Notes under the pieces: generated by a model
Database searches by the model: none
What the model saw: the letters and a program-made list of their open reading frames with translations, nothing else
Told to the model about the DNA's origin: nothing
Shown here: piece after piece, positions 19,408-28,897 of the stretch
Numbering within the stretch: the first letter of the stretch is position 1
Layout: every line of letters starts with the position of its first letter
Source: Aminobacter anthyllidis
GTDB lineage: Bacteria > Pseudomonadota > Alphaproteobacteria > Rhizobiales > Rhizobiaceae
Length of the DNA: 64,000 nucleotides
Direction of reading: 5' to 3'
Assembly (NCBI RefSeq): GCF_018555685.1
Contig: NZ_JAFLWW010000003.1
Span: 434,001 to 498,000, forward strand
Program-made: the position numbers and the translations under genes

Positions 19408-20658
19408 TCACTCCACGATCTCCGCGGTCTCCACCACGGCATGGAACAGCACGTCGCAGCCGGCGGCGGCCCATTCGGGATAGATTTCCTCGTCTTCGTT
19501 GTGGCTCAGCCCGTCGACGCAGGGACAAAACACCATTGCCGTCGGCGCCACGCGGTTGATCCAGCAGGCGTCGTGGCCGGCGCCCGAGACGATGTCACGA
19601 TGGCTGTAGCCGAGCCGGTCGGCGGCGTCGCGCACGGCCTTGACGCAATCCGGGTCGAAGGCGACGGGATCGAAGTGGCCGACCTGCTCGATCTCGAAGG
19701 AAATGTCGAGCGCCTCGCAGATCGTCGCCACACCCTCGCGGATGCGGCCGTCCATGGCATCGAGCACTTCCTTCTCCGGCGAGCGGATGTCGATGGTGAA
19801 GACGGTACGCCCGGCGATGATGTTTCGCGAGTTGGGATAGACCTCCATGTGACCGACCGCGCCAACGGCGTCGGGCTGGTAGTCCATGGCGATCTCGTGC
19901 ACGAGTTCGGTCACCCGCGCCATGCCGAGGCCGGCGTTGCGGCGCTTGTACATCGGTGTCGAGCCGGTATGTGCTTCCATGCCGGTCAAGGTCACCTGCA
20001 GCCACTTCAGGCCCTGTCCATGGGTGACGACGCCGATTTCAATCTCTTCGTCCTCGAGGATCGGTCCCTGCTCGATATGCAGCTCGAAGAACGCCTTCAT
20101 CTTGCGGGCGCCGACCTTCTCGGTGCCTTTCCAGCCGATGCGCTCCAGCTCGTCGCCGAAGCTCTTGCCATGCGCGTCCTTGCGGGCATAGGCGAAATCC
20201 TGCTCGAGCACGCCGGCAAACACGCCCGATGCCAGCATGGCCGGGGCAAAGCGCGTGCCTTCCTCGTTGGTCCAGTTGGTGACGACGATGGGATGCTTCG
20301 TCTTGATGCCGAGATCGTTGAGTGAGCGGATCACCTCAAGCCCGCCGAGCACGCCGAGCACGCCGTCGAACTTGCCGCCCGTCGGCTGGGTGTCGAGATG
20401 GCTGCCGACATAGACCGGCAGCGCTTCGGGGTCGGTGCCTTCGCGGCGGGCAAACATCGTGCCCATCTCGTCGATGCCCATTTCAAGGCCGGCTTCGTCG
20501 CACCACCGCTTGAACAGATGGCGGCCCTCGCCGTCCTCGTCGGTCAGGGTCTGGCGGTTGTTGCCGCCGGCAATGCCGGGTCCGATCTTCGCCATCTCCA
20601 TCAGCGAATCCCACAAACGATCTGAATTGATTCGGAGATTCTCGCCAGGTGCGGCCAT
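19408..20658 (-). CDS. pydC: N-carbamoyl-beta-alanine amidohydrolase (Zn-dependent, M20/ArgE family)
   Basis: 416 residues. Metal-binding motifs follow the beta-ureidopropionase/L-carbamoylase order: GSHLDTQPTGGKFDGVLG (His and bridging Asp), WTNEEGTRFAPAM (Glu pair), FELHIEQGP (His) and a C-terminal LSHNEDE (His), with a dimerisation lid domain between about 215 and 330 (SRNIIAGR). It hydrolyses N-carbamoyl-beta-alanine to beta-alanine, CO2 and ammonia, the third step of the reductive pathway. The ATG at 20658 lies 11 nt after the cupin stop, so it is in the aminotransferase-cupin operon. Hydantoin-linked L-carbamoylase activity is a possible alternative. Confidence 0.92.
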   Translation of the reverse strand: MAAPGENLRINSDRLWDSLMEMAKIGPGIAGGNNRQTLTDEDGEGRHLFKRWCDEAGLEMGIDEMGTMFARREGTDPEALPVYVGSHLDTQPTGGKFDGVLGVLGGLEVIRSLNDLGIKTKHPIVVTNWTNEEGTRFAPAMLASGVFAGVLEQDFAYARKDAHGKSFGDELERIGWKGTEKVGARKMKAFFELHIEQGPILEDEEIEIGVVTHGQGLKWLQVTLTGMEAHTGSTPMYKRRNAGLGMARVTELVHEIAMDYQPDAVGAVGHMEVYPNSRNIIAGRTVFTIDIRSPEKEVLDAMDGRIREGVATICEALDISFEIEQVGHFDPVAFDPDCVKAVRDAADRLGYSHRDIVSGAGHDACWINRVAPTAMVFCPCVDGLSHNEDEEIYPEWAAAGCDVLFHAVVETAEIVE

Positions 20659-20669
20659 GGTTCGGACCC

Positions 20670-20969
20670 TTATGCTTTCAGTTCGACTTCAACGAACGAC
20701 ATCGGCTTGTCGCCGCCATTGACCACATTGTGCTCGACGCCTTCATCCCGCCTGTAGGCCAAGCCGGCAGCCATGTCGACACGCCTGACACCGCCACCCG
20801 GCTCCTCCAGCAGAAACGAGCAAGGCGTGATCGTCGTCACGACATAGTCCATGCCATGCCTGTGCCAACGTGTTTCCGCGCCGGGATCGAAATCCCAGCG
20901 CGTGACGCGGACCTTGTCATCGTCCACAAGCACTTCGCTCGTGGCCTGCTGCCGCGCCTGATAGGTCAA
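20670..20969 (-). CDS. Small cupin-domain protein
   Basis: 99 residues forming one cupin barrel: PGAETRWHRHGMDYVVTTI gives the first metal motif (HRH...), and GVEHNVVNGGDKPMSFVEVE gives the second. The start is TTG at 20969, which overlaps the aminotransferase stop by 4 nt (TTGA); this coupling supports the unusual start. No catalytic assignment is possible. Its place between the aminotransferase and the amidohydrolase suggests an accessory or ligand-binding role in pyrimidine catabolism. Confidence 0.85.
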   Translation of the reverse strand: MTYQARQQATSEVLVDDDKVRVTRWDFDPGAETRWHRHGMDYVVTTITPCSFLLEEPGGGVRRVDMAAGLAYRRDEGVEHNVVNGGDKPMSFVEVELKA

Positions 20970-22294
20970 TCCACCATCCTCAGCACTTCACGGACGTGAT
21001 CGATCAACTCGTTGATCTGGCCGTTGGTGATGATCAGTGGCGGCGACAGCGCGATGATGTCACCGGTGGTCCGGATCAGCGCGCCGCGCTCAAACGCCTT
21101 CACGAAGGCCGAGAACGCGCGCTTGCTCGGGCTGCCGGCAATCGGCTGCAGCTCGATCGCGCCGATCAGGCCGATATTGCGGATGTCGATAACGTGCGGT
21201 TCGCCCTTCAGCGAATGCAGCGCATCTTCCCAATAAGACGCAAGTTCGGCGCCGCGGGTCAGCAAGCCCTCTTCCTTGTAGGTGTCGAGGGTGGCGAGTG
21301 CCGCGGCCGAGGCGATCGGGTTGCCCGAATAGGTGTAGCCGTGGAAGAACTCGATCAGGTGTTCCGGCCCGGTCATGAAGGCGTCGTGGATTTCCTTCTT
21401 CACGAACACCGCGCCCATCGGGATGACGCCGTTGGAGACACCCTTGGCGGTGGTGATGATATCAGGAATGACGCCGAAGTAATCGGACGCGAACGGCGTG
21501 CCGAGGCGGCCGAAACCGGTGATGACCTCGTCGAAGATCAACAGGATGCCGTGCTTGGTGCAGATTTCGCGCAGTTTCTGCAGATAGCCCTTCGGCGGGA
21601 TCAGCACGCCAGTGGAGCCGGCGACCGGCTCGACGATGACGGCAGCGATGGTCGAGGCGTCGTGCAGTGTCACGATCCGCTCGAGTTCGTCGGCAAGCTC
21701 CGCGCCATACTCAGGCTCACCCTTGGTGAAGGCGTTCTTGGCCGGCAGATGTGTGTGCGGCATGTGGTCGACGCCGCCGAGCAGCGTACCGAACATCTTG
21801 CGGTTGGTGACGATGCCGCCGACCGAGATGCCGCCGAAATTGACGCCGTGATAGCCACGCTCGCGGCCAATGAGACGGGTACGTGCGCCCTCGCCCTTCA
21901 CCCGGTGATAGGCGATCGCCATCTTGAGGGCCGTGTCGACCGACTCCGAACCGGAATTGGTGAAGAATACATGGTCCATGCCCTTGGGCGCGATGTCGAC
22001 GAGGCGGTTGGCCAGTTCGAAGACGATCGGGTGGCCCATCTGGAACGCCGGGGCATAGTCGAGCTCGGCGGCCTGTTTCTGGATCGCCTCGGTGATCTTG
22101 GGCCGGCAGTGGCCGGCATTGACGCACCACAGGCCTGCGGTGCCGTCGAGAATCTTGCGGCCGTCGCTGGCCGTGTAATGCATGTCCTTTGCCGCAACCA
22201 TCATGCGCGGCGCCTGCTTGAACTGCCTGTTCGAGGTGAACGGCATCCAGAATGCGCTGAGATCGTTGGGCGTAACTTTTAGCCTGTCCGACAT
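20966..22294 (-). CDS. Omega-amino acid (beta-alanine):pyruvate aminotransferase
   Basis: 442 residues from the ATG at 22294, with GGAAAG 8 nt upstream. Class III PLP aminotransferase motifs: GLWCVNAGH, FFTNSGSESVDTALKMA, LIFDEVITGFGRLG and the PLP lysine in TTAKGVSNGVIPMGAV. The FW-MPFT N-terminal segment and HPIVFELANRL match the beta-alanine:pyruvate group. It would turn beta-alanine (or 3-aminoisobutyrate) into malonic semialdehyde with pyruvate as acceptor, the fourth step after PreTA, HydA and PydC. It heads an operon with the cupin and amidohydrolase; a RutR-like box lies about 77 nt upstream. Confidence 0.92.
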   Translation of the reverse strand: MSDRLKVTPNDLSAFWMPFTSNRQFKQAPRMMVAAKDMHYTASDGRKILDGTAGLWCVNAGHCRPKITEAIQKQAAELDYAPAFQMGHPIVFELANRLVDIAPKGMDHVFFTNSGSESVDTALKMAIAYHRVKGEGARTRLIGRERGYHGVNFGGISVGGIVTNRKMFGTLLGGVDHMPHTHLPAKNAFTKGEPEYGAELADELERIVTLHDASTIAAVIVEPVAGSTGVLIPPKGYLQKLREICTKHGILLIFDEVITGFGRLGTPFASDYFGVIPDIITTAKGVSNGVIPMGAVFVKKEIHDAFMTGPEHLIEFFHGYTYSGNPIASAAALATLDTYKEEGLLTRGAELASYWEDALHSLKGEPHVIDIRNIGLIGAIELQPIAGSPSKRAFSAFVKAFERGALIRTTGDIIALSPPLIITNGQINELIDHVREVLRMVD

Positions 22295-22370
22295 GACCAA
22301 GCTTTCCTTTCTTCCCCGGGTTCGGTACGGCCAACGCTTGGTCTTCGGTGCGTTTTCATGCTACGCAATT

Positions 22371-22390
22371 TTTTGACCGATTGGACAAAC
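22371..22390. promoter_or_regulatory. RutR-like operator between aminotransferase and rutR
   Basis: TTGACCGATTGGACAA (within 22371-22390) is a near-palindrome matching the RutR consensus TTGACCAnnTGGTCAA known from E. coli. It lies in the divergent spacer, so one site could control both the catabolic operon and rutR. A second, closer match lies at 28898-28915. Confidence 0.7.
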
Positions 22391-22515
22391 GTTAGCACCG
22401 CCGCATTGGCGGTCAAGGGATTACTACCGGAAATGCGGCTTCTGAGGCGCGCTCCACAGGTCGGCAAGAACTGGTCCAGCCGATTGGTCCAGATGGCGTC
22501 GGCACCCACCCTCGC

Positions 22516-23169
22516 ATGCGGGACGTGATGACCATGGAAGGCTCGACACCGCGCGGTCGCACCCGCATCCAGAAAGAAAAGCGCGAGGTCATCCTCGAGG
22601 CCGCGCTGGAGGTGTTTTCGACCAACGGCTTCAGGGGCTCGACCATCGACCAGATCGCCGAGGCGGCGGGCATGTCGAAGCCCAATTTGCTCTATTATTT
22701 CCGCCGCAAGGAAGACATCCACGAGACGCTGATGCACCGGCTGCTCGACACCTGGCTGGCGCCGCTGAAGGAGCTCGACGATATCGGCGACCCGATGACC
22801 GAGCTACGCAGCTACATCAGGCGCAAGCTCGAAATGGCGCGGGACTTCCCCCGGGAAAGCCGGCTCTTCGCCAACGAGATCCTGCAGGGCGCACCGCGCA
22901 TCATGGCGATGCTCGAAGGCGAACTGAAGACGCTGGTGGACGAGAAGGTCGAGGTCATCAGGGGCTGGATGCGCGCAGGCAAAGTCGCCAAGGCCGACCC
23001 ATGGCATTTGATCTTCGCGATCTGGGCGACGACCCAGCATTATGCCGATTTCGACGTCCAGGTCCGCGCCGTGCTCGGCCCCGACCGTGGCGGCGATGGC
23101 CGCTTCGAGGACGCCGCACGCTTCCTCGAACAGCTTTTCCTCGAAGGACTCAAGCCGAAGGCCAACTGA
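22516..23169 (+). CDS. rutR: TetR-family pyrimidine regulator RutR
   Basis: 217 residues. The N-terminal TetR helix-turn-helix is VFSTNGFRGSTIDQIAEAAG followed by MSKPNLLYYFRRKE. The ligand domain carries RutR hallmarks: LDTWLAPLKEL, YIRRKLEMARDFPRESRLF, LIFAIWATTQHYADFDVQV and EGLKPK, all alignable to E. coli RutR, which binds uracil/thymine. It should derepress the surrounding pyrimidine genes in the presence of uracil. ATGs at 22516, 22528 and 22534 are all possible starts. It is divergent from the aminotransferase operon with a shared operator. Confidence 0.92.
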   Translation: MRDVMTMEGSTPRGRTRIQKEKREVILEAALEVFSTNGFRGSTIDQIAEAAGMSKPNLLYYFRRKEDIHETLMHRLLDTWLAPLKELDDIGDPMTELRSYIRRKLEMARDFPRESRLFANEILQGAPRIMAMLEGELKTLVDEKVEVIRGWMRAGKVAKADPWHLIFAIWATTQHYADFDVQVRAVLGPDRGGDGRFEDAARFLEQLFLEGLKPKAN

Positions 23170-23196
23170 CCGCCGCAAGAAACAGCGGCCAGTTGG
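23162..23196. terminator. Hairpin between convergent rutR and EF-hand gene
   Basis: A 12-bp stem with one mismatch (23162-23173 with 23185-23196) spans the rutR stop, with an 11-nt loop. No clear T-run follows on either strand, so termination is likely but weak. Confidence 0.5.
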
Positions 23197-23206
23197 GCCC
23201 ACGCTC

Positions 23207-24016
23207 CTACCCTCGCGGTGCCATGAATTCCTGGCGCGACAGCCGGCCATCGGCATCGCTGTCAAACGCAGCAATCAGCGCCGGACCATCGCCATCGCCC
23301 GCATTGGCCTGGGCAAGCTCGCTGGCCGACAGCAAACCGTCCTTGTTGGCGTCCACTGCGGCAAAGGCCTTGTCGACAAGCGAGCGATGATGCGCTTCGA
23401 ATTCGGGGAAGCTCAGCCGACCGTCATGGTCGATATCCATCTGCGCGAACTCGCTGGCACGGATCTCCGTCGGACTGCCGAGACCTGCGCCCCTGCCAGG
23501 AACGCGCACGGCGAGGATGACCGGTTTGCTACCTGCTGCGCCGGGCGCGGCGCGCATGACAAACATCATCCCCGGGGGAGGCGTATCAGGCGGCAATCGA
23601 GCCTCTGGCTCCGGGGCGTCGGCGGCTCCTGTCTTGAACTTGCGGATCAGCGTACCGCTGCCGAACTCGCTCGAACTGATGACGCCGTTGCCGTCGGCAT
23701 CGAGCTCCTTGAATGCGGCCTGCAGGTCAGGCAGCGCGGTCGCCGGCGATACCGCCAGACTGACGCCGCCAACCGCGACGAAGGCCGCTAGCAATGCCAT
23801 TGCGGGTCGAGAATAGGTGCGAAACTTGGCCATGCTTCTTTCCCATGCTGTCTGGGGTGGAGAACATGCCGCCTCGGCCAGATAGGCGTCGATGAAACTG
23901 CGCACGACCTCGCTCGCCGGTCTGCCCTCGGCACGGCTGCGGGCCATCAGGGCCTGCTTGGTCTCGTGCGGGATCCTGATTTCCAGCGTTTCGCTTTTCT
24001 TGGGAGCTCGGGTCAT
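23207..24016 (-). CDS. Ribbon-helix-helix / transmembrane / EF-hand fusion protein
   Basis: 269 residues from the ATG at 24016. Residues 9-46 (ETLEIRIPHETKQALMARSR, then EGRPASEVVRSFIDAYL) form a CopG/Arc-type ribbon-helix-helix DNA-binding domain. Residues about 70-91 form one hydrophobic segment. The rest carries four canonical calcium loops: DADGNGVISSSE (106-117), DIDHDGRLSFPE (194-205), DANKDGLLSASE (222-233) and DSDADGRLSRQE (252-263). All are in one frame without a stop. A cytoplasmic DNA-binding and periplasmic calcium-binding topology would make it a membrane-tethered calcium sensor (inference). An internal ATG at 23833 with GGGAAAGAAG before it could also yield a secreted EF-hand protein of 208 residues with a signal peptide. 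Confidence 0.8.
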   Translation of the reverse strand: MTRAPKKSETLEIRIPHETKQALMARSRAEGRPASEVVRSFIDAYLAEAACSPPQTAWERSMAKFRTYSRPAMALLAAFVAVGGVSLAVSPATALPDLQAAFKELDADGNGVISSSEFGSGTLIRKFKTGAADAPEPEARLPPDTPPPGMMFVMRAAPGAAGSKPVILAVRVPGRGAGLGSPTEIRASEFAQMDIDHDGRLSFPEFEAHHRSLVDKAFAAVDANKDGLLSASELAQANAGDGDGPALIAAFDSDADGRLSRQEFMAPRG

Positions 24017-24114
24017 GGCGGGTCTCATCTTCGCCGTCGGCTTGGCGGCCCGCCAATCACGACAGGCCGCAGCGTTCATTGAAACATGAGAGCCGTCCCG
24101 ATGCAGGCGTTTTC

Positions 24115-24126
24115 GTGTCCGGACAC
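24115..24126. promoter_or_regulatory. 12-bp perfect palindrome upstream of the RHH/EF-hand gene
   Basis: GTGTCCGGACAC is a perfect dyad 99 nt upstream of the EF-hand gene start, inside a 235-nt spacer otherwise lacking features. Ribbon-helix-helix dimers bind short palindromes, so autoregulation is conceivable (inference). Confidence 0.35.
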
Positions 24127-24251
24127 AGCAAAAAGCACCACTTGCAGCGACGAAAAGAGGCAGATCGAAGATGCCTCGCGCATCCTCGGCCTGCTTTTGC
24201 ATGAATGGCTTAGATCAAAGAGCTGAATCAGTTTCTCGACAGCGATCGGCT

Positions 24252-24623
24252 CTATTGGCCAGCCGCGATCACCAGCAGGAAACTGCCGGCCAGAGCCACG
24301 TTGCTGACCACCCCGTTGATCCGGGAGGCGCGATCCGGACCCTGGTGGTCCCAGAAATTGTGGAACATCAGCGTCCCTGCAACCAGGAACACGATGAGCG
24401 CCGCTGCCGCATAGGCTGCGTGGAAGCCGACCATCAGCATCAAGCCGGCAACGATCTGCAGTACGATCCCGCCCCAAAGGACCACCCCTGCCTGCGGCAC
24501 GCCGCGAGTGGTCATCATGCCGGTGAGCAGTTTGGTATTGGCGATGTTGCGCAAGCCGGCAAAAACGAAAGCGCCGCCAAGCAGCAGCCGGCCGACAAAG
24601 GCCAGAGTCGAAATGTCGAACAT
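24252..24623 (-). CDS. DoxX-family membrane protein
   Basis: 123 residues from the ATG at 24623 (Shine-Dalgarno GGGGGA 4 nt upstream). Four hydrophobic segments and the motifs RLLLGGAFVFAGLRNI and HNFWDH mark the DoxX/SURF4-like family. Members sit in the inner membrane with redox or thiol-stress partners; CatD-like DoxX proteins assist quinone detoxification. It is the third gene of an Rrf2-AhpD-DoxX operon, 60 nt after the AhpD-like gene. Confidence 0.87.
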   Translation of the reverse strand: MFDISTLAFVGRLLLGGAFVFAGLRNIANTKLLTGMMTTRGVPQAGVVLWGGIVLQIVAGLMLMVGFHAAYAAAALIVFLVAGTLMFHNFWDHQGPDRASRINGVVSNVALAGSFLLVIAAGQ

Positions 24624-24682
24624 AAGTCCCCCATGGCGACCGCCTTCCGGCGATCGCTGCAAAACGTCTTTTGGTTTGTGAA

Positions 24683-25141
24683 TCAGGCGGCCTTGGCTTC
24701 GGCGACCGGATGAACGGCGTGGAACGTCACGCAAAGCCGGTTCCATGTGTTGATCATGCCGACCGCCATGGTCAGCTTGACCAGCTCTTCTCCCGAGAAG
24801 TGCTTTTGCGCTTCGGCATAGAGTTCCCCCGGAACACCCGCATCGGCAATGTTGGTGACGGCTTCGGTCCAGGCAAAGGCCATGCGCTCGCGCTCGCTGA
24901 ACAGCGGCGATTCCTTCCAGGCAGCTACCAGCCAGAGGCGCTGCTCGGTCTCGCCGTCGTGCTTGGCTTCGCGGCTGTGCATGTCGACACAGTAGGAACA
25001 GCCATTGATCTGCGACGCGCGCAGCTTGATCAGGTGCAGCAAGCCGACTTCGAGCCCACATTCGTTGATGGCGGTGTTGAGCGAGACCAGAAGCTTCGTC
25101 AGCTCGGGTGCGGCAGTATAGAAATTCAATCTGGGTTTCAT
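24683..25141 (-). CDS. Carboxymuconolactone decarboxylase/AhpD-family protein
   Basis: 152 residues. The AhpD core INGCSYCVDMHSREA contains the CxxC pair and the downstream His, so a thiol-peroxidase-like or disulfide-exchange activity is likely rather than lactone decarboxylation. The ATG at 25141 has GGAAG upstream and overlaps the Rrf2 stop by 4 nt. It is probably a cytoplasmic alkylhydroperoxidase-like enzyme under the adjacent regulator. Confidence 0.9.
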   Translation of the reverse strand: MKPRLNFYTAAPELTKLLVSLNTAINECGLEVGLLHLIKLRASQINGCSYCVDMHSREAKHDGETEQRLWLVAAWKESPLFSERERMAFAWTEAVTNIADAGVPGELYAEAQKHFSGEELVKLTMAVGMINTWNRLCVTFHAVHPVAEAKAA

Positions 25142-25671
25142 GGCATCTTCCTTTCGTTGATAAGTCTTTGCTTGGAGTTCTGCGGCCGCTGGTTCAGTGC
25201 CACGAAGGCGCAACTGGCGGCGACGATGCGTTGATCCGCGGTGGCATTGAAATCGGCGACGATGTCGGAGAGCCTGGTTTCAGCAAGTGCCGCGCGATAG
25301 GCCCGCTCGGCCTTGAGCATGGCGACATTGATGCCGCAGGGCTTCACATAGGCCGACGGGTCAAGCGCATAGCTGCCCTTCTGCCTGATCTCGCCGCAGC
25401 GAAACGCCGGTTCCCTGCCCTCGATCGCCAGCACGATGTCGAGCAGCGTGATTTTTTCCGCCGCCCGCGCCAGGCGGTAGCCGCCGTTCGGGCCGGGCAC
25501 AGATTCCAGGATCCTTGCCCCCGTCAGCGCCTTGAGGTGCTTGAGCAGGTAGCTCGGCGACAGGCCGAAGGCCACGGCCATGACATTGCCGGGCAGCGTG
25601 CCGTCGCCGTCGACTCCGGCCAGCATCGCCGCGCAATGGATCGCCGCCTCCACGCCATCACCAAGCTTCAT
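25138..25671 (-). CDS. Rrf2-family transcriptional regulator
   Basis: 177 residues from the second of two ATGs (25671), which is correctly spaced from AAAGGAG; the first ATG (25677) directly abuts that site. The winged-helix recognition region LSPSYLLKHLKALTGARILESV and the wing GPNGGYRLAR are Rrf2 hallmarks. Cysteines in FRCGEIRQKG and KPCGIN could ligate an Fe-S cluster or act as redox switches, though the spacing is not the IscR three-Cys pattern. It heads the AhpD-DoxX operon and probably regulates itself via the palindrome at 25706-25720. Confidence 0.9.
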   Translation of the reverse strand: MKLGDGVEAAIHCAAMLAGVDGDGTLPGNVMAVAFGLSPSYLLKHLKALTGARILESVPGPNGGYRLARAAEKITLLDIVLAIEGREPAFRCGEIRQKGSYALDPSAYVKPCGINVAMLKAERAYRAALAETRLSDIVADFNATADQRIVAASCAFVALNQRPQNSKQRLINERKMP

Positions 25672-25705
25672 CGCCATCTCCTTTATCGTCGATAATTAAT
25701 ATCTT

Positions 25706-25720
25706 GGATAAATTTTATCC
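25706..25720. promoter_or_regulatory. Putative Rrf2 operator
   Basis: GGATAAATTTTATCC is a perfect 7+1+7 dyad 35 nt upstream of the Rrf2 start in an AT-rich stretch, with a looser GATAATTAATATC beside it (25691-25703). Its placement and AT-rich dyad suit NsrR/RirA/IscR-type binding. Confidence 0.55.
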
Positions 25721-25758
25721 GCAATAGCTACGACGAAAAATTTCATTGATGACGATGC

Positions 25759-26160
25759 CTAAATGTTGAGCTCTGCTCCGGATCCGTCTTGCCTGCTCGC
25801 CGGCGTCACGTGGCTGAGCACGCACTTCCAGCCGGTTCCGTGACGGGCGAAGACATCGCTGGTCCATTCGTCGGCCGTAAAACGCTGACCGCGAAAATGG
25901 CCGCTGTTGACGACGCGCGCGGTGTAGACCGCGGTCGCGCCGTAGAGTTCGACGCGTGGTTCGCTGGCAGTTCGCATCATATCGTGGGTGAGGTCGCCCG
26001 AGGCGACCAAGGCGAGAAAATCTGTTTTGGATGTCGCACCGTCGGGGCCGACGATGACCCAATCGTCGGTCATGAAGTGGCCAATGGCAGCGGCGTCATT
26101 GGCAACGATCGCCTCCGCCCAGGCAAGAGCGAGTTCGACGATCTCGCTCCTGTCGTCCAT
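25759..26160 (-). CDS. NTF2-like (SnoaL/DUF4440) protein
   Basis: 133 residues. The cone-shaped NTF2-like fold is suggested by the N-terminal helix ELALAWAEAIVANDAAAIGH, the DDWVIVGPDG strand and the GTGWKCVLSHVTP C-terminal strand. It starts 6 nt after the preA stop, so it is co-transcribed with preTA. Family members are small ligand-binding or isomerase-like proteins; a specific role in dihydropyrimidine metabolism is not known to me. Confidence 0.83.
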   Translation of the reverse strand: MDDRSEIVELALAWAEAIVANDAAAIGHFMTDDWVIVGPDGATSKTDFLALVASGDLTHDMMRTASEPRVELYGATAVYTARVVNSGHFRGQRFTADEWTSDVFARHGTGWKCVLSHVTPASRQDGSGAELNI

Positions 26161-26166
26161 GGCTCC

Positions 26167-27480
26167 CTACTCCGCCGCCACCTTGGCCATCGGGTTGTTG
26201 GGATGCGTCGTCCAGTTGGCATAATGCGGCGACACCGGCTTGCCGGTGCGCTTGTCCATGGCGCCGACGGCCAGGGGCTCCATGGTGATGCAGTTCTCGA
26301 CCGGGCAGACGTTGACGCAGAGATTGCAGCCAACGCACTCCTCGTCGATCACCTCGAAGTGCCTGACACCGTCGACCATGCTGGTGATCGCCTGGTGCGA
26401 AGTGTCCTCGCAGGCGATGTGGCAGCGGCCGCACTTGATGCAGGCGTCCTGGTCGATATGCGCCTTGGCGACGTAGTTGAGGTTGAGATACTGCCAGTCG
26501 GTGACATTGGGCGTGGCGCGGCCGACAATGTCGTCGAGCGAGCGGTGGCCCTTCTCGTCCATCCAGTTTTCGAGACCGGCGATCATTTCCTGCACGATCT
26601 TGAAGCCGTAGGTCATCGCCGCTGTGCAAACCTGAACGTTGCCGGCACCGAGCGCCATGAACTCAGCCGCATCGCGCCAGGTGGTGATGCCGCCGATGCC
26701 CGAAATCGGCAGTCCGGCCGTCTCAGGGTCGCGCGCGATCTCGGCCACCATGTTCATGGCGATCGGCTTGACCGCCGGGCCGCAATAGCCGCCATGCGAA
26801 CCCTTGCCGTCGATTGTCGGCTCCGGCGCGAAGCTGTCGAGGTTGACGCCGGTGATCGAGTTGATGGTGTTGATCAGCGACACCGCGTCGGTGCCGCCGG
26901 CATGCGCCGCGCGCGCCGGCTTGCGCACGTCGGTGATGTTGGGCGTCAGCTTGGTGATGACGGGCATGCGCGTGTTTTGCTTGCACCAGCGCACGACCAT
27001 TTCGATATATTCGGGCACCTGGCCGACGGCCGCACCCATGCCGCGTTCCGACATGCCATGCGGGCAGCCGAAATTGAGCTCGATGCCATCGGCGCCGGTC
27101 TCCTCGACGACCGGCAGGATCGCCTTCCAGGCTTCCTCGACGCACGGCACCATCAGCGACACGACGATGGCCCTGTCGGGCCAGTCCATCTTGACCTGCT
27201 TGATCTCGCGCAGATTGGTCTGCAGGTCGCGATCGGTGATCAGCTCGATGTTGTTGAGGCCGAGCAGGCGGCGGTCGGCACCCCAGATCGCGCCATAGCG
27301 CGGGCCGTTGACGTTGACGACAGGCGGGCCTTCCTCGCCCAGCGTCTTCCACACGACACCGCCCCAACCCGCCTTGAAGGCGCGGACGACGTTGTAGGCC
27401 TTGTCGGTGGGTGGCGCGGAGGCCAGCCAGAACGGGTTGGGCGACTTGATGCCGACGAAATTGTTGCGGATGTCTGCCAT
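26167..27480 (-). CDS. preA: NAD-dependent dihydropyrimidine dehydrogenase subunit PreA
   Basis: 437 residues. Residues 1-310 form a dihydroorotate-dehydrogenase-type FMN barrel; NFGCPHGMSERGMG holds the catalytic cysteine (Cys139) and mobile loop seen in mammalian DPD. The C-terminal part has two 4Fe-4S motifs: CIKCGRCHIAC and CVGCNLCVNVCP. With PreT it reduces uracil and thymine to the 5,6-dihydro forms with NADH, the first step of the reductive pathway. It lies 11 nt after preT and 6 nt before the NTF2-like gene. Confidence 0.96.
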   Translation of the reverse strand: MADIRNNFVGIKSPNPFWLASAPPTDKAYNVVRAFKAGWGGVVWKTLGEEGPPVVNVNGPRYGAIWGADRRLLGLNNIELITDRDLQTNLREIKQVKMDWPDRAIVVSLMVPCVEEAWKAILPVVEETGADGIELNFGCPHGMSERGMGAAVGQVPEYIEMVVRWCKQNTRMPVITKLTPNITDVRKPARAAHAGGTDAVSLINTINSITGVNLDSFAPEPTIDGKGSHGGYCGPAVKPIAMNMVAEIARDPETAGLPISGIGGITTWRDAAEFMALGAGNVQVCTAAMTYGFKIVQEMIAGLENWMDEKGHRSLDDIVGRATPNVTDWQYLNLNYVAKAHIDQDACIKCGRCHIACEDTSHQAITSMVDGVRHFEVIDEECVGCNLCVNVCPVENCITMEPLAVGAMDKRTGKPVSPHYANWTTHPNNPMAKVAAE

Positions 27481-27491
27481 CTTGTCCTCCC

Positions 27492-28844
27492 TCAGCCGAT
27501 CAGGGCGCGGTTGATCGATTCAGCCGCGTCGCGTCCTTGCGCCACAGCCGAGACGGTCAGATCGTCGCCGCCTGCGATGCAGTCGCCACCGGCCCAGACC
27601 TTGGCGAGCGATGTACGCCCTTCGCCATCGACCTTGATGCGGCCGCCTTCCATGGCGATCGAAACGCCGCTGCCGTTGAGTGCTGCCGGCTCGAAGCTCT
27701 GGCCGATCGCCTTGAACACCTGGTCGGCGGCGAGCCTGACGATCTCGCCGGTGCCGGCGAGCTTGTCGCCCTTCATGGCGGTGTATTCGAGCTCGATGGC
27801 GACCACCTTGCCGCCGTCGGCGATGACCTGCTTGGGCTGCAGCCAGTGGCGGATGACGACGCCGTTGGCAGCGGCCAGATCCTGCTCGAAGCCCGAAGCG
27901 TTCATGTGCTCCTGGCCGCGGCGGTAGCAGATCGTCACCTCCTCGGCGCCGAGCAGCTTGGACTGCACGGCGGCGTCGACGGCCGTCATGCCGCCGCCGA
28001 TGACGACGACGCGGCGCCCGACCGGCAGGCCGGCGAGATCGCTCGACTGGCGCAAGGTGGAGATGAAGTCGACCGCATTGGAGACGCCTGAAGCGTCTTC
28101 GCCCTCGGCGCGCAGCGCGTTGACGCCGGCAAGGCCGAGGCCGAGGAACACGGCGTCGTAAGAGGCGGCCAGATCGGCGAGATGATAGTCGCGGCCGAGC
28201 GCCTTGCCGTTTTCGGTCGTAATGCCACCGATTGCTGTGACGTAGTCGACTTCGGCCTGGGCGAAATCGTCGGTGCTCTTATAGGCGGCGATGCCATATT
28301 CGTTGAGGCCGCCGGCCTTTGGCCGGGCTTCGAGGATGGTCACCTCATGGCCATGGCGCGCGAGCCTGTGCGCGGCCGCAAGACCAGCCGGGCCTGCACC
28401 GACGACGGCGATCTTCTTGCCGGTCGGCTCGGCGCGCTGGTAAAACTGCTTGCCCTGCGCCATCGCCACATCGGTGGCGTAGCGTTGCAGGCGGCCGATC
28501 TGCACCGGCTTGCCCTCGGCGACCTCGCGGACGCAGACTTCCTCGCACAATGTCTCGGTCGGGCAGACACGGGCGCACATGCCGCCGAGAATGTTCTGGT
28601 CGAAGATGGTCTTGGCCGAACCGATCGGATTGCCAGTCGAAATCTGGCGGATGAACATCGGGATGTCGATCGATGTCGGGCATGCCTGCATGCACGGCGC
28701 GTCGTAGCAGAAATAGCAACGATCGGACTCCACCAGCGCCTCGTGGTGGTCCAGCGCCGGGTGCAGGTCGGAGAAATTCTCGGCGTATTGAGTGGGCGCA
28801 AGGCGGCCGCCGACGATGCCTTCCTTGAAAAGACCTTCTGCCAT
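27492..28844 (-). CDS. preT: NAD-dependent dihydropyrimidine dehydrogenase subunit PreT
   Basis: 450 residues from the ATG at 28844 with GGGGAAC upstream. Similar to the GltD-like half of DPD: N-terminal Fe-S cysteines CYFCYDAPCMQACP and GGMCARVCPTETLCEEVC, an FAD motif VVGAGPAGLAAAHRLA, and an NAD(P) motif VVVIGGGMTAVDAA. It takes electrons from NADH and passes them through flavin and clusters to PreA. It is the first gene of the preT-preA-NTF2 operon, with a strong RutR-like box 54-71 nt upstream. Confidence 0.95.
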   Translation of the reverse strand: MAEGLFKEGIVGGRLAPTQYAENFSDLHPALDHHEALVESDRCYFCYDAPCMQACPTSIDIPMFIRQISTGNPIGSAKTIFDQNILGGMCARVCPTETLCEEVCVREVAEGKPVQIGRLQRYATDVAMAQGKQFYQRAEPTGKKIAVVGAGPAGLAAAHRLARHGHEVTILEARPKAGGLNEYGIAAYKSTDDFAQAEVDYVTAIGGITTENGKALGRDYHLADLAASYDAVFLGLGLAGVNALRAEGEDASGVSNAVDFISTLRQSSDLAGLPVGRRVVVIGGGMTAVDAAVQSKLLGAEEVTICYRRGQEHMNASGFEQDLAAANGVVIRHWLQPKQVIADGGKVVAIELEYTAMKGDKLAGTGEIVRLAADQVFKAIGQSFEPAALNGSGVSIAMEGGRIKVDGEGRTSLAKVWAGGDCIAGGDDLTVSAVAQGRDAAESINRALIG

Positions 28845-28897
28845 TCCAGTTCCCCAGTTTATTCTCGTTTTGAGGAAGCGTAGCACGTTCTAATTTT

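Follow-up and report, generated by a model that had tools for sequence, protein, structure and literature searches.

A candidate membrane-anchored ribbon-helix-helix autoregulator with periplasmic EF-hands in Aminobacter anthyllidis and related genera

The window analysed here is a stretch of 64,000 nucleotides from the 6.7 Mb genome of Aminobacter anthyllidis (contig NZ_JAFLWW010000003.1, positions 434,001 to 498,000). The gene in question is located on the minus strand of the window, reads from 24016 to 23207, and encodes 269 amino acids plus a stop codon. Its product carries a ribbon-helix-helix (RHH) domain, followed by a single hydrophobic segment and by four EF-hand calcium loops, and is probably, as judged from the sequences of the gene and its homologues, a switch that responds to calcium and regulates its own synthesis. 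The preferred reading, with a probability of roughly 0.55, is a single-pass transmembrane regulator with its RHH domain on tandem operators in its own promoter and metal-reading EF-hands in the periplasm. The N-terminal RHH domain would remain in the cytoplasm, where RHH dimers would bind tandem palindromes spaced by 22 bp in the promoter of the gene, most likely repressing it. Through the hydrophobic segment the C-terminal half would reach the periplasm; there the four EF-hands would take up calcium or a different metal, and their loading would alter DNA binding. Binding of this RHH domain to this upstream element is considered likely from the sequence data, repression is the somewhat favored sign of regulation, and the chances that metal binding gates DNA binding are about even. 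Features of the gene are given below; G and L numbers in the text are handles for genomes and loci, respectively.

23207 to 24016, minus strand: RHH-hydrophobic segment-EF-hand gene, 269 aa plus stop, with homologues
23879 to 24016, minus strand: ribbon-helix-helix domain, residues 1-46 (Pfam, ratio of nonsynonymous to synonymous change (pN/pS), AlphaFold2, Foldseek)
23834 to 23878, minus strand: variable linker, residues 47-61 (open in all 11 unbroken genes; Aminobacter pN/pS 0.72)
23831 to 23833, minus strand: internal Met62 codon, a possible second start (ATA in G001)
23747 to 23803, minus strand: hydrophobic segment, residues 72-90 (Kyte-Doolittle hydropathy (KD) 2.17; net charge +3 in the 15 residues before it)
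23735 to 23743, minus strand: A-T-A, residues 92-94, a possible signal peptidase I site by the -3/-1 rule
23666 to 23701, minus strand: EF loop 1, DADGNGVISSSE, residues 106-117
23402 to 23437, minus strand: EF loop 2, DIDHDGRLSFPE, residues 194-205
23318 to 23353, minus strand: EF loop 3, DANKDGLLSASE, residues 222-233
23228 to 23263, minus strand: EF loop 4, DSDADGRLSRQE, residues 252-263

A 10-bp palindrome is present 95-158 bp before the start codon in all eight lineages that carry the gene, as TGTCCGGACA in seven and as TGTCATGACA in one (G915, 95 bp). TGTCCGGACA precedes the start by 100 bp in G983, by 109 bp in all five Aminobacter loci (a broken one among them) and G406, by 129 bp in both G271 and G734, and by 158 bp in G949; G438 contains two perfect copies, 118 and 96 bp before the start. 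The palindrome at 24115-24126, already named in the first-pass annotation, is real and forms the core of this conserved element. When the upstream regions were resampled with a first-order Markov model, a perfect TGTCCGGACA was obtained in about 1-6 per 10,000 cases, and it was found in none of 75 control loci with only EF-hands or only an RHH domain (238 kb, in which three pairs overlap and not every frame was read). A second and weaker copy follows at an offset of 22 bp, with a mean of 7.0 of 10 matches over the eight lineages versus 2.43 (standard deviation 0.64) at 58 other offsets. In the window the two units are as follows.

24104 to 24125, minus strand: putative operator unit 1, TGTCCGGACACGAAAACGCCTG
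24082 to 24103, minus strand: putative operator unit 2, CATCGGGACGGCTCTCATGTTT, a degenerate copy 22 bp on with 6 of 10 core matches

The spacing of 22 bp corresponds to two turns of DNA, which would fit cooperative binding on one face. Open reading frames (ORFs) within 6.5 kb of the gene were compared over the eight lineages, and five matching pairs were obtained, none of them in more than two lineages. The upstream element is thus kept with the gene in all eight lineages and the neighbours are not, so that it appears to travel with the gene, and autoregulation by the RHH domain is the simplest reading of it. In G915 the palindrome centre is CATG instead of CCGG, and the RHH strand carries Lys where the others have Ser or Thr. 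This paired change is, as a single event, no more than suggestive.

In the host genome the palindrome is not enriched (5 sites versus 5 for the control), and the full unit, allowing up to 3 mismatches, occurs only at the promoter of the gene itself; a wider regulon of sites within this pattern was rejected for this genome on these counts. One TGTCCGGACA site of the host genome (L061:1501, C12:333139) lies between a gene for an exported EF-hand protein and a serine-hydrolase-like gene. This site is also present in A. ciceronei (L114) and absent in G001 (L115); the serine-hydrolase-like gene turned up in 3 of 10 genomes of the genus.

The coordinates 23207-24016 first assigned to the gene are correct, with the gene reading on the minus strand. 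A longer frame of 331 amino acids reaches upstream to 24202. The extension was rejected as probably non-coding, because variation in the 63 nucleotides upstream of the start in five loci falls on codon positions 1/2/3 as 3/3/5, and because strong Shine-Dalgarno matches precede the homologous start in G271 (-8.0 kcal/mol) and G438 (-9.3 kcal/mol). The match at the start of the window gene itself is weak (-3.2 kcal/mol). A comparison with plasmid records gave no match.

That a single frame joins the RHH domain, the hydrophobic segment and the four calcium loops is borne out by an RHH-type match, a single KD peak and four canonical EF loops. A sequencing error or a chance same-frame joining could in principle have fused two separate genes, and the weak constraint on the linker (pN/pS 0.72), together with Met62, which could begin an ordinary signal peptide, would fit such an origin. 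The frame is open, however, in at least 11 genes of 8 genera, linker lengths in Aminobacter differ by whole codons only, and a search of 199 genomes of the bacterial family with the RHH part alone yielded no close stand-alone copy at E 1e-4. With at least 11 unbroken fused genes the two-gene explanation was rejected, and we regard it as scarcely credible. The first-pass annotation had named two findings that would speak against a fusion, homologues with the RHH and EF parts always in separate genes and a frameshift joining two genes here; the parts are not always separate, and no such frameshift was found.

The homologue search proposed at that stage returned the full order of RHH domain, membrane segment and EF-hands in 8 genera of one class, with at least 11 unbroken genes. 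Identity to the window protein is 24-28% in the six most distant homologues. The profile searches scored at most 6 (394 genomes of the bacterial family), 13 (347 genomes), 12 (374 genomes of the family) and 16 (289 genomes) candidates per genome, and all member counts are lower bounds. A profile of the four Aminobacter proteins retrieved homologues in G406 (full-length) and in G271 (distant), giving an unbroken fused gene in at least 5 of 394 genomes of the family, plus the broken copy in G007. An N-terminal profile led to G438, from another family of the order (at least 2 of 347 genomes, including the host genome), and a profile extended by G438 led to G734, G983, G949 and G915, from four further families of the class (at least 5 of 289 genomes, including the host genome). 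These last four were absent from the profile, and each of them has the RHH domain, the hydrophobic segment and four EF loops by the loose pattern (three in G915) in one frame. They score 48.8-96 bits; the next matches reach at most 29.6 bits in the 289 genomes and 33.6 bits in the 374 genomes of the family, where the extended profile found no new member among at most 12 candidates per genome. No further copy with an RHH domain turned up at E 1e-6 in 150 genomes around G438 or in 101 around G271. Of the low matches, 5 of 16 were inspected for the N-terminal profile (one as L016), 2 of 13 for the 374 genomes and 1 of 4 for the 289 genomes. Weak RHH matches at L016, L025, L067, L069, L076, L079, L097, L101 and L109 were discarded, with no RHH-EF fusion in the frame read; the match in L025 appeared unrelated. 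Among 25 EF-hand loci from the search of 394 genomes, judged by a pattern and the first 130 residues of the frame (cut by a stop in L054 and L055), the G271 homologue is the only one with an RHH-like start. Within the genus, the copy is unbroken in 4 of 10 genomes and broken in one, G007. From the sequences searched, the fused family is rare and patchy, yet spread across a class. The broken copy in G007 (A. carboxidus; L005/L026) has a stop in the RHH part and large losses in the EF half, and the upstream palindrome is kept.

Among six segments compared over 6 Aminobacter pairs, the RHH domain shows the lowest pN/pS (0.07), followed by EF2-4 (0.21), EF1 (0.23), the export segment (0.24), the middle part (0.40) and the linker (0.72). 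RHH-type models reached their cut-off in 3 of 7 homologues scanned (P0005, P0006, P0007 and L105-L108), namely RHH_1 in G438 (21.1 bits, cut-off 20.5), a NikA-like model in G949 (29.1, cut-off 27) and RHH_9 in G915 (23.4, cut-off 23.4). AlphaFold2 modelled residues 1-52 with a mean predicted local distance difference test (pLDDT) score of 86.2 and helices at 17-30 and 34-50; the helix blocks score 88-96, and no strand is present in the single-chain model (the strand forms in the dimer). With this model, Foldseek placed PutA RHH, Rv0298, ORF56, TacA2, AmrZ and CdbA at the top, all of which we take to be RHH chains; these matches are weak, with a best E of 0.18. A full-length AlphaFold2 model built from two sequences had a mean pLDDT of 37.5 and was not used.

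Four EF-hand stretches were identified in the window protein by Pfam (E 9.3e-24, above the cut-off), and all four loops follow the canonical pattern of 12 residues with D1, x3, x5, G6, I/L/V8 and E12. An insert between EF1 and EF2 (MFVMRAAP...KPVILAVRVP; residues 149-173, window 23498-23572) is conserved and was found, among 11 proteins, only in Aminobacter and G406.

The membrane segment was judged by hydropathy, by which a cleavable signal peptide would look alike. The window protein shows a single clear peak (KD 2.17, next best 1.13), as does each of the 11 fused proteins, with peak values of 1.55-2.22. The net charge in the 15 residues flanking the segment is +1 to +4 before it and -1 to +1 after it. 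The EF half of five lineages (G271, G438, G734, G983 and G949) contains a Cys pair, 74-102 residues apart, which is not found in Aminobacter, G406 and G915 and fits a possible periplasmic disulfide. An arrangement with a cytoplasmic RHH domain and a periplasmic EF half fits both the charge pattern and the Cys pair, and this N-in/C-out topology, proposed from the start, is considered highly likely on these sequence signals. In a purely cytoplasmic protein the hydrophobic stretch would be a buried core helix and the EF-hands would sense cytosolic calcium. The peak KD values are indeed moderate and not extreme, but a single clear peak is present in 11 of 11 proteins, preceded by net positive charge and followed by a cleavage-like site, and with the Cys pair in five lineages this makes a cytoplasmic protein improbable.

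An explanation without sensing is an autorepressor coupled to export, in which the hydrophobic segment is a cleavable signal peptide. Signal peptidase would free the EF half as the working product in the periplasm, and what is left, the RHH domain with the signal peptide, would repress the gene in proportion to export. Small residues at -3/-1, as in the signal peptidase I rule, were read by eye just before EF1 in 8 of 8 lineages (ATA, ASA, AQA, AQS, ARA, ASA, AQS, SKA). EF-hand proteins lacking the RHH domain (L085 and others) share the layout and have an ordinary-looking signal peptide, and the confinement of the full operator unit to its own promoter would suit such a mechanism as well. On the other hand, the sequence is Ala-rich and A-x-A/S a loose motif, and an n-region of 60-70 residues is unusual. 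Overall we hold export-coupled repression to be a possible but doubtful account.

The gene might also give two products, a long form anchored with its RHH domain and a short exported EF-hand protein started at an internal Met, an arrangement compatible either with the transmembrane regulator or with export-coupled repression. In 7 of 8 lineages a Met occurs 8-15 residues ahead of the hydrophobic peak, despite diverged linkers (expected in 17% each, binomial 2.8e-5, with the 8-15 residue range set after inspection of the data). Shine-Dalgarno matches at these Met codons amount to -3.3 to -6.9 kcal/mol in six lineages. This last evidence is not special because other internal Met codons have similar or stronger matches; in addition, the match in G915 is just -1.5 kcal/mol, the codon is ATA in G001, G949 has no such Met, and the Met could have been left over from the fusion. 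A second product is therefore also rated as unlikely, if conceivable.

Several observations weigh against the transmembrane, calcium-reading regulator preferred here. The RHH_1 match of the window protein itself falls under the Pfam cut-off (12.6 bits for the whole protein and 14.2 for residues 1-46, cut-off 20.5). Part of the RHH conservation may act at the DNA level, as synonymous change is also low there (pS 0.26 in the RHH domain and linker of Aminobacter versus 0.44-0.59 in the four segments past the linker). EF loop 2 is lost in G001 with the RHH domain retained; the loose pattern gives only three loops in G915, and the strict pattern two in G734, G949 and G915. The cleavage-like site before EF1 could allow signal peptidase to free the EF half in all eight lineages, and cleavage there would uncouple the sensor from the DNA-binding head. 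The internal Met present in seven of the lineages may serve as the start of an EF-hand protein bound for export. The second operator copy matches the core at 6 of 10 positions in Aminobacter, which is weak, and is out of register in G915, where GACAC recurs at 21 bp. Nothing in the host genome points to a wider regulon, although the pattern used would miss more divergent sites. Finally, no copy was found at E 1e-8 in 5 of 10 genomes of the genus (among them G008, 81% complete), so the gene is, on these assemblies, dispensable there.

A combined view, in which one gene provides a trans-envelope calcium sensor, a tethered autorepressor and the source of an exported EF-hand protein, and represents an undescribed family spread over the class, is put forward only tentatively and is on balance unlikely. 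If true, an RHH domain placed before an export signal would make a periplasmic calcium-binding protein regulated by the amount that is exported and calcium-loaded.

Positions 19408-28886 of the window hold a pyrimidine-degradation-like block with a RutR-like TetR regulator (TetR_C_3 match) and a DoxX-AhpD-Rrf2-like group that adjoins the fused gene; most neighbour names are by sequence appearance, with Pfam run on three. The first-pass annotation had pointed to redox genes and rutR beside the gene, a context that is not supported as a clue, as neighbour families recur in at most two of the eight lineages. The strongest shared neighbour, and the only strong match of specific appearance, is an aminotransferase (36% identity) at L088:9522-10898 in G406 and at 20966-22300 in the window, and its presence near the fused gene in Aminobacter and G406 may be chance. 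One of the five ORF pairs is the opposite-strand shadow of this aminotransferase, and the others resemble common families.

Among known systems, ToxR and CadC, which we take to be examples of transmembrane transcriptional regulators (TTRs), are similar to the window protein in that a single chain links a DNA-binding domain in the cytoplasm to an outer domain through one membrane segment. To this extent the ToxR-like plan first suggested is retained; the window protein differs by an RHH domain in place of the winged helix, EF-hands on the outside, and no shared partner gene seen. An OmpR-type winged-helix domain gave no Pfam match up to E 1 in the window protein, which has the RHH domain in that place. 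As for a ToxS-type partner, neighbour families occur in at most two lineages within 6.5 kb, no ToxS profile search having been made. In the accessible part of a survey, TTRs are defined as proteins that combine a predicted DNA-binding domain with one or more predicted transmembrane regions (PMC10269533). With its RHH domain and one hydrophobic peak in the hydropathy plot the window protein belongs under this definition. The words 'ribbon', 'RHH' and 'EF-hand' do not occur in the main text of the survey, which refers to a table of more than a hundred DNA-binding domains, where RHH members may be listed (PMC10269533, accessible part). Within the library searched, no paper had both 'ribbon-helix-helix' and 'EF-hand' or 'EF hand', and the matches listed, among them the TTR survey, a paper on HigX and one on calcium indicators, showed by title and start of abstract nothing on this architecture. 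The matches listed for the palindrome as a search term were, by title and start of abstract, not on bacterial regulators, and several were on p53.

Soluble RHH regulators and antitoxins (Arc, CopG, the PutA N-terminus, AmrZ, NikR) share the RHH helix pair and the palindromic or tandem operators, and are commonly autoregulated. We know of none among them that is membrane-anchored via an export-type segment, and of none with EF-hands. EF-hand proteins exported by Alphaproteobacteria, such as L085 in G057, share the signal-type segment followed by EF loop 1 and further loops, and differ from the window protein by the lack of an RHH domain. The gene for this protein (L085:1405-2139) follows an ORF whose end resembles a histidine kinase by eye, and may show another mode of regulation for such an EF-hand protein. 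Lanmodulin (NCBIfam LanM) is likewise an EF-hand protein with matching loops; it differs by the Pro at loop position 2 that is its hallmark and is missing from the loops of the window protein, which scores 34.1 bits with the LanM profile against a cut-off of 135. The NCBIfam model of the XopAW calcium-binding effector gave 55.2 bits against a cut-off of 120, with the best stretch at 188-266 (EF loops). HigX of Caulobacter is also an alphaproteobacterial membrane-bound regulator, and differs, in the accessible part of its description, by a LytTR domain, four membrane helices and no apparent periplasmic domain (PMC13384398).

Compared with these systems, the window protein is best described as a candidate membrane-bound one-component regulator with a new domain pairing and, by inference, its own operator. 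The sensing of outside calcium by bacteria is poorly understood, and this family provides a single-protein candidate for which an operator has been predicted. Few regulators leading directly from calcium to a promoter are known to us. Members occur in several families of one class and, if the preferred reading is true, would add an RHH head with EF-hand input to the range of membrane-bound regulators.
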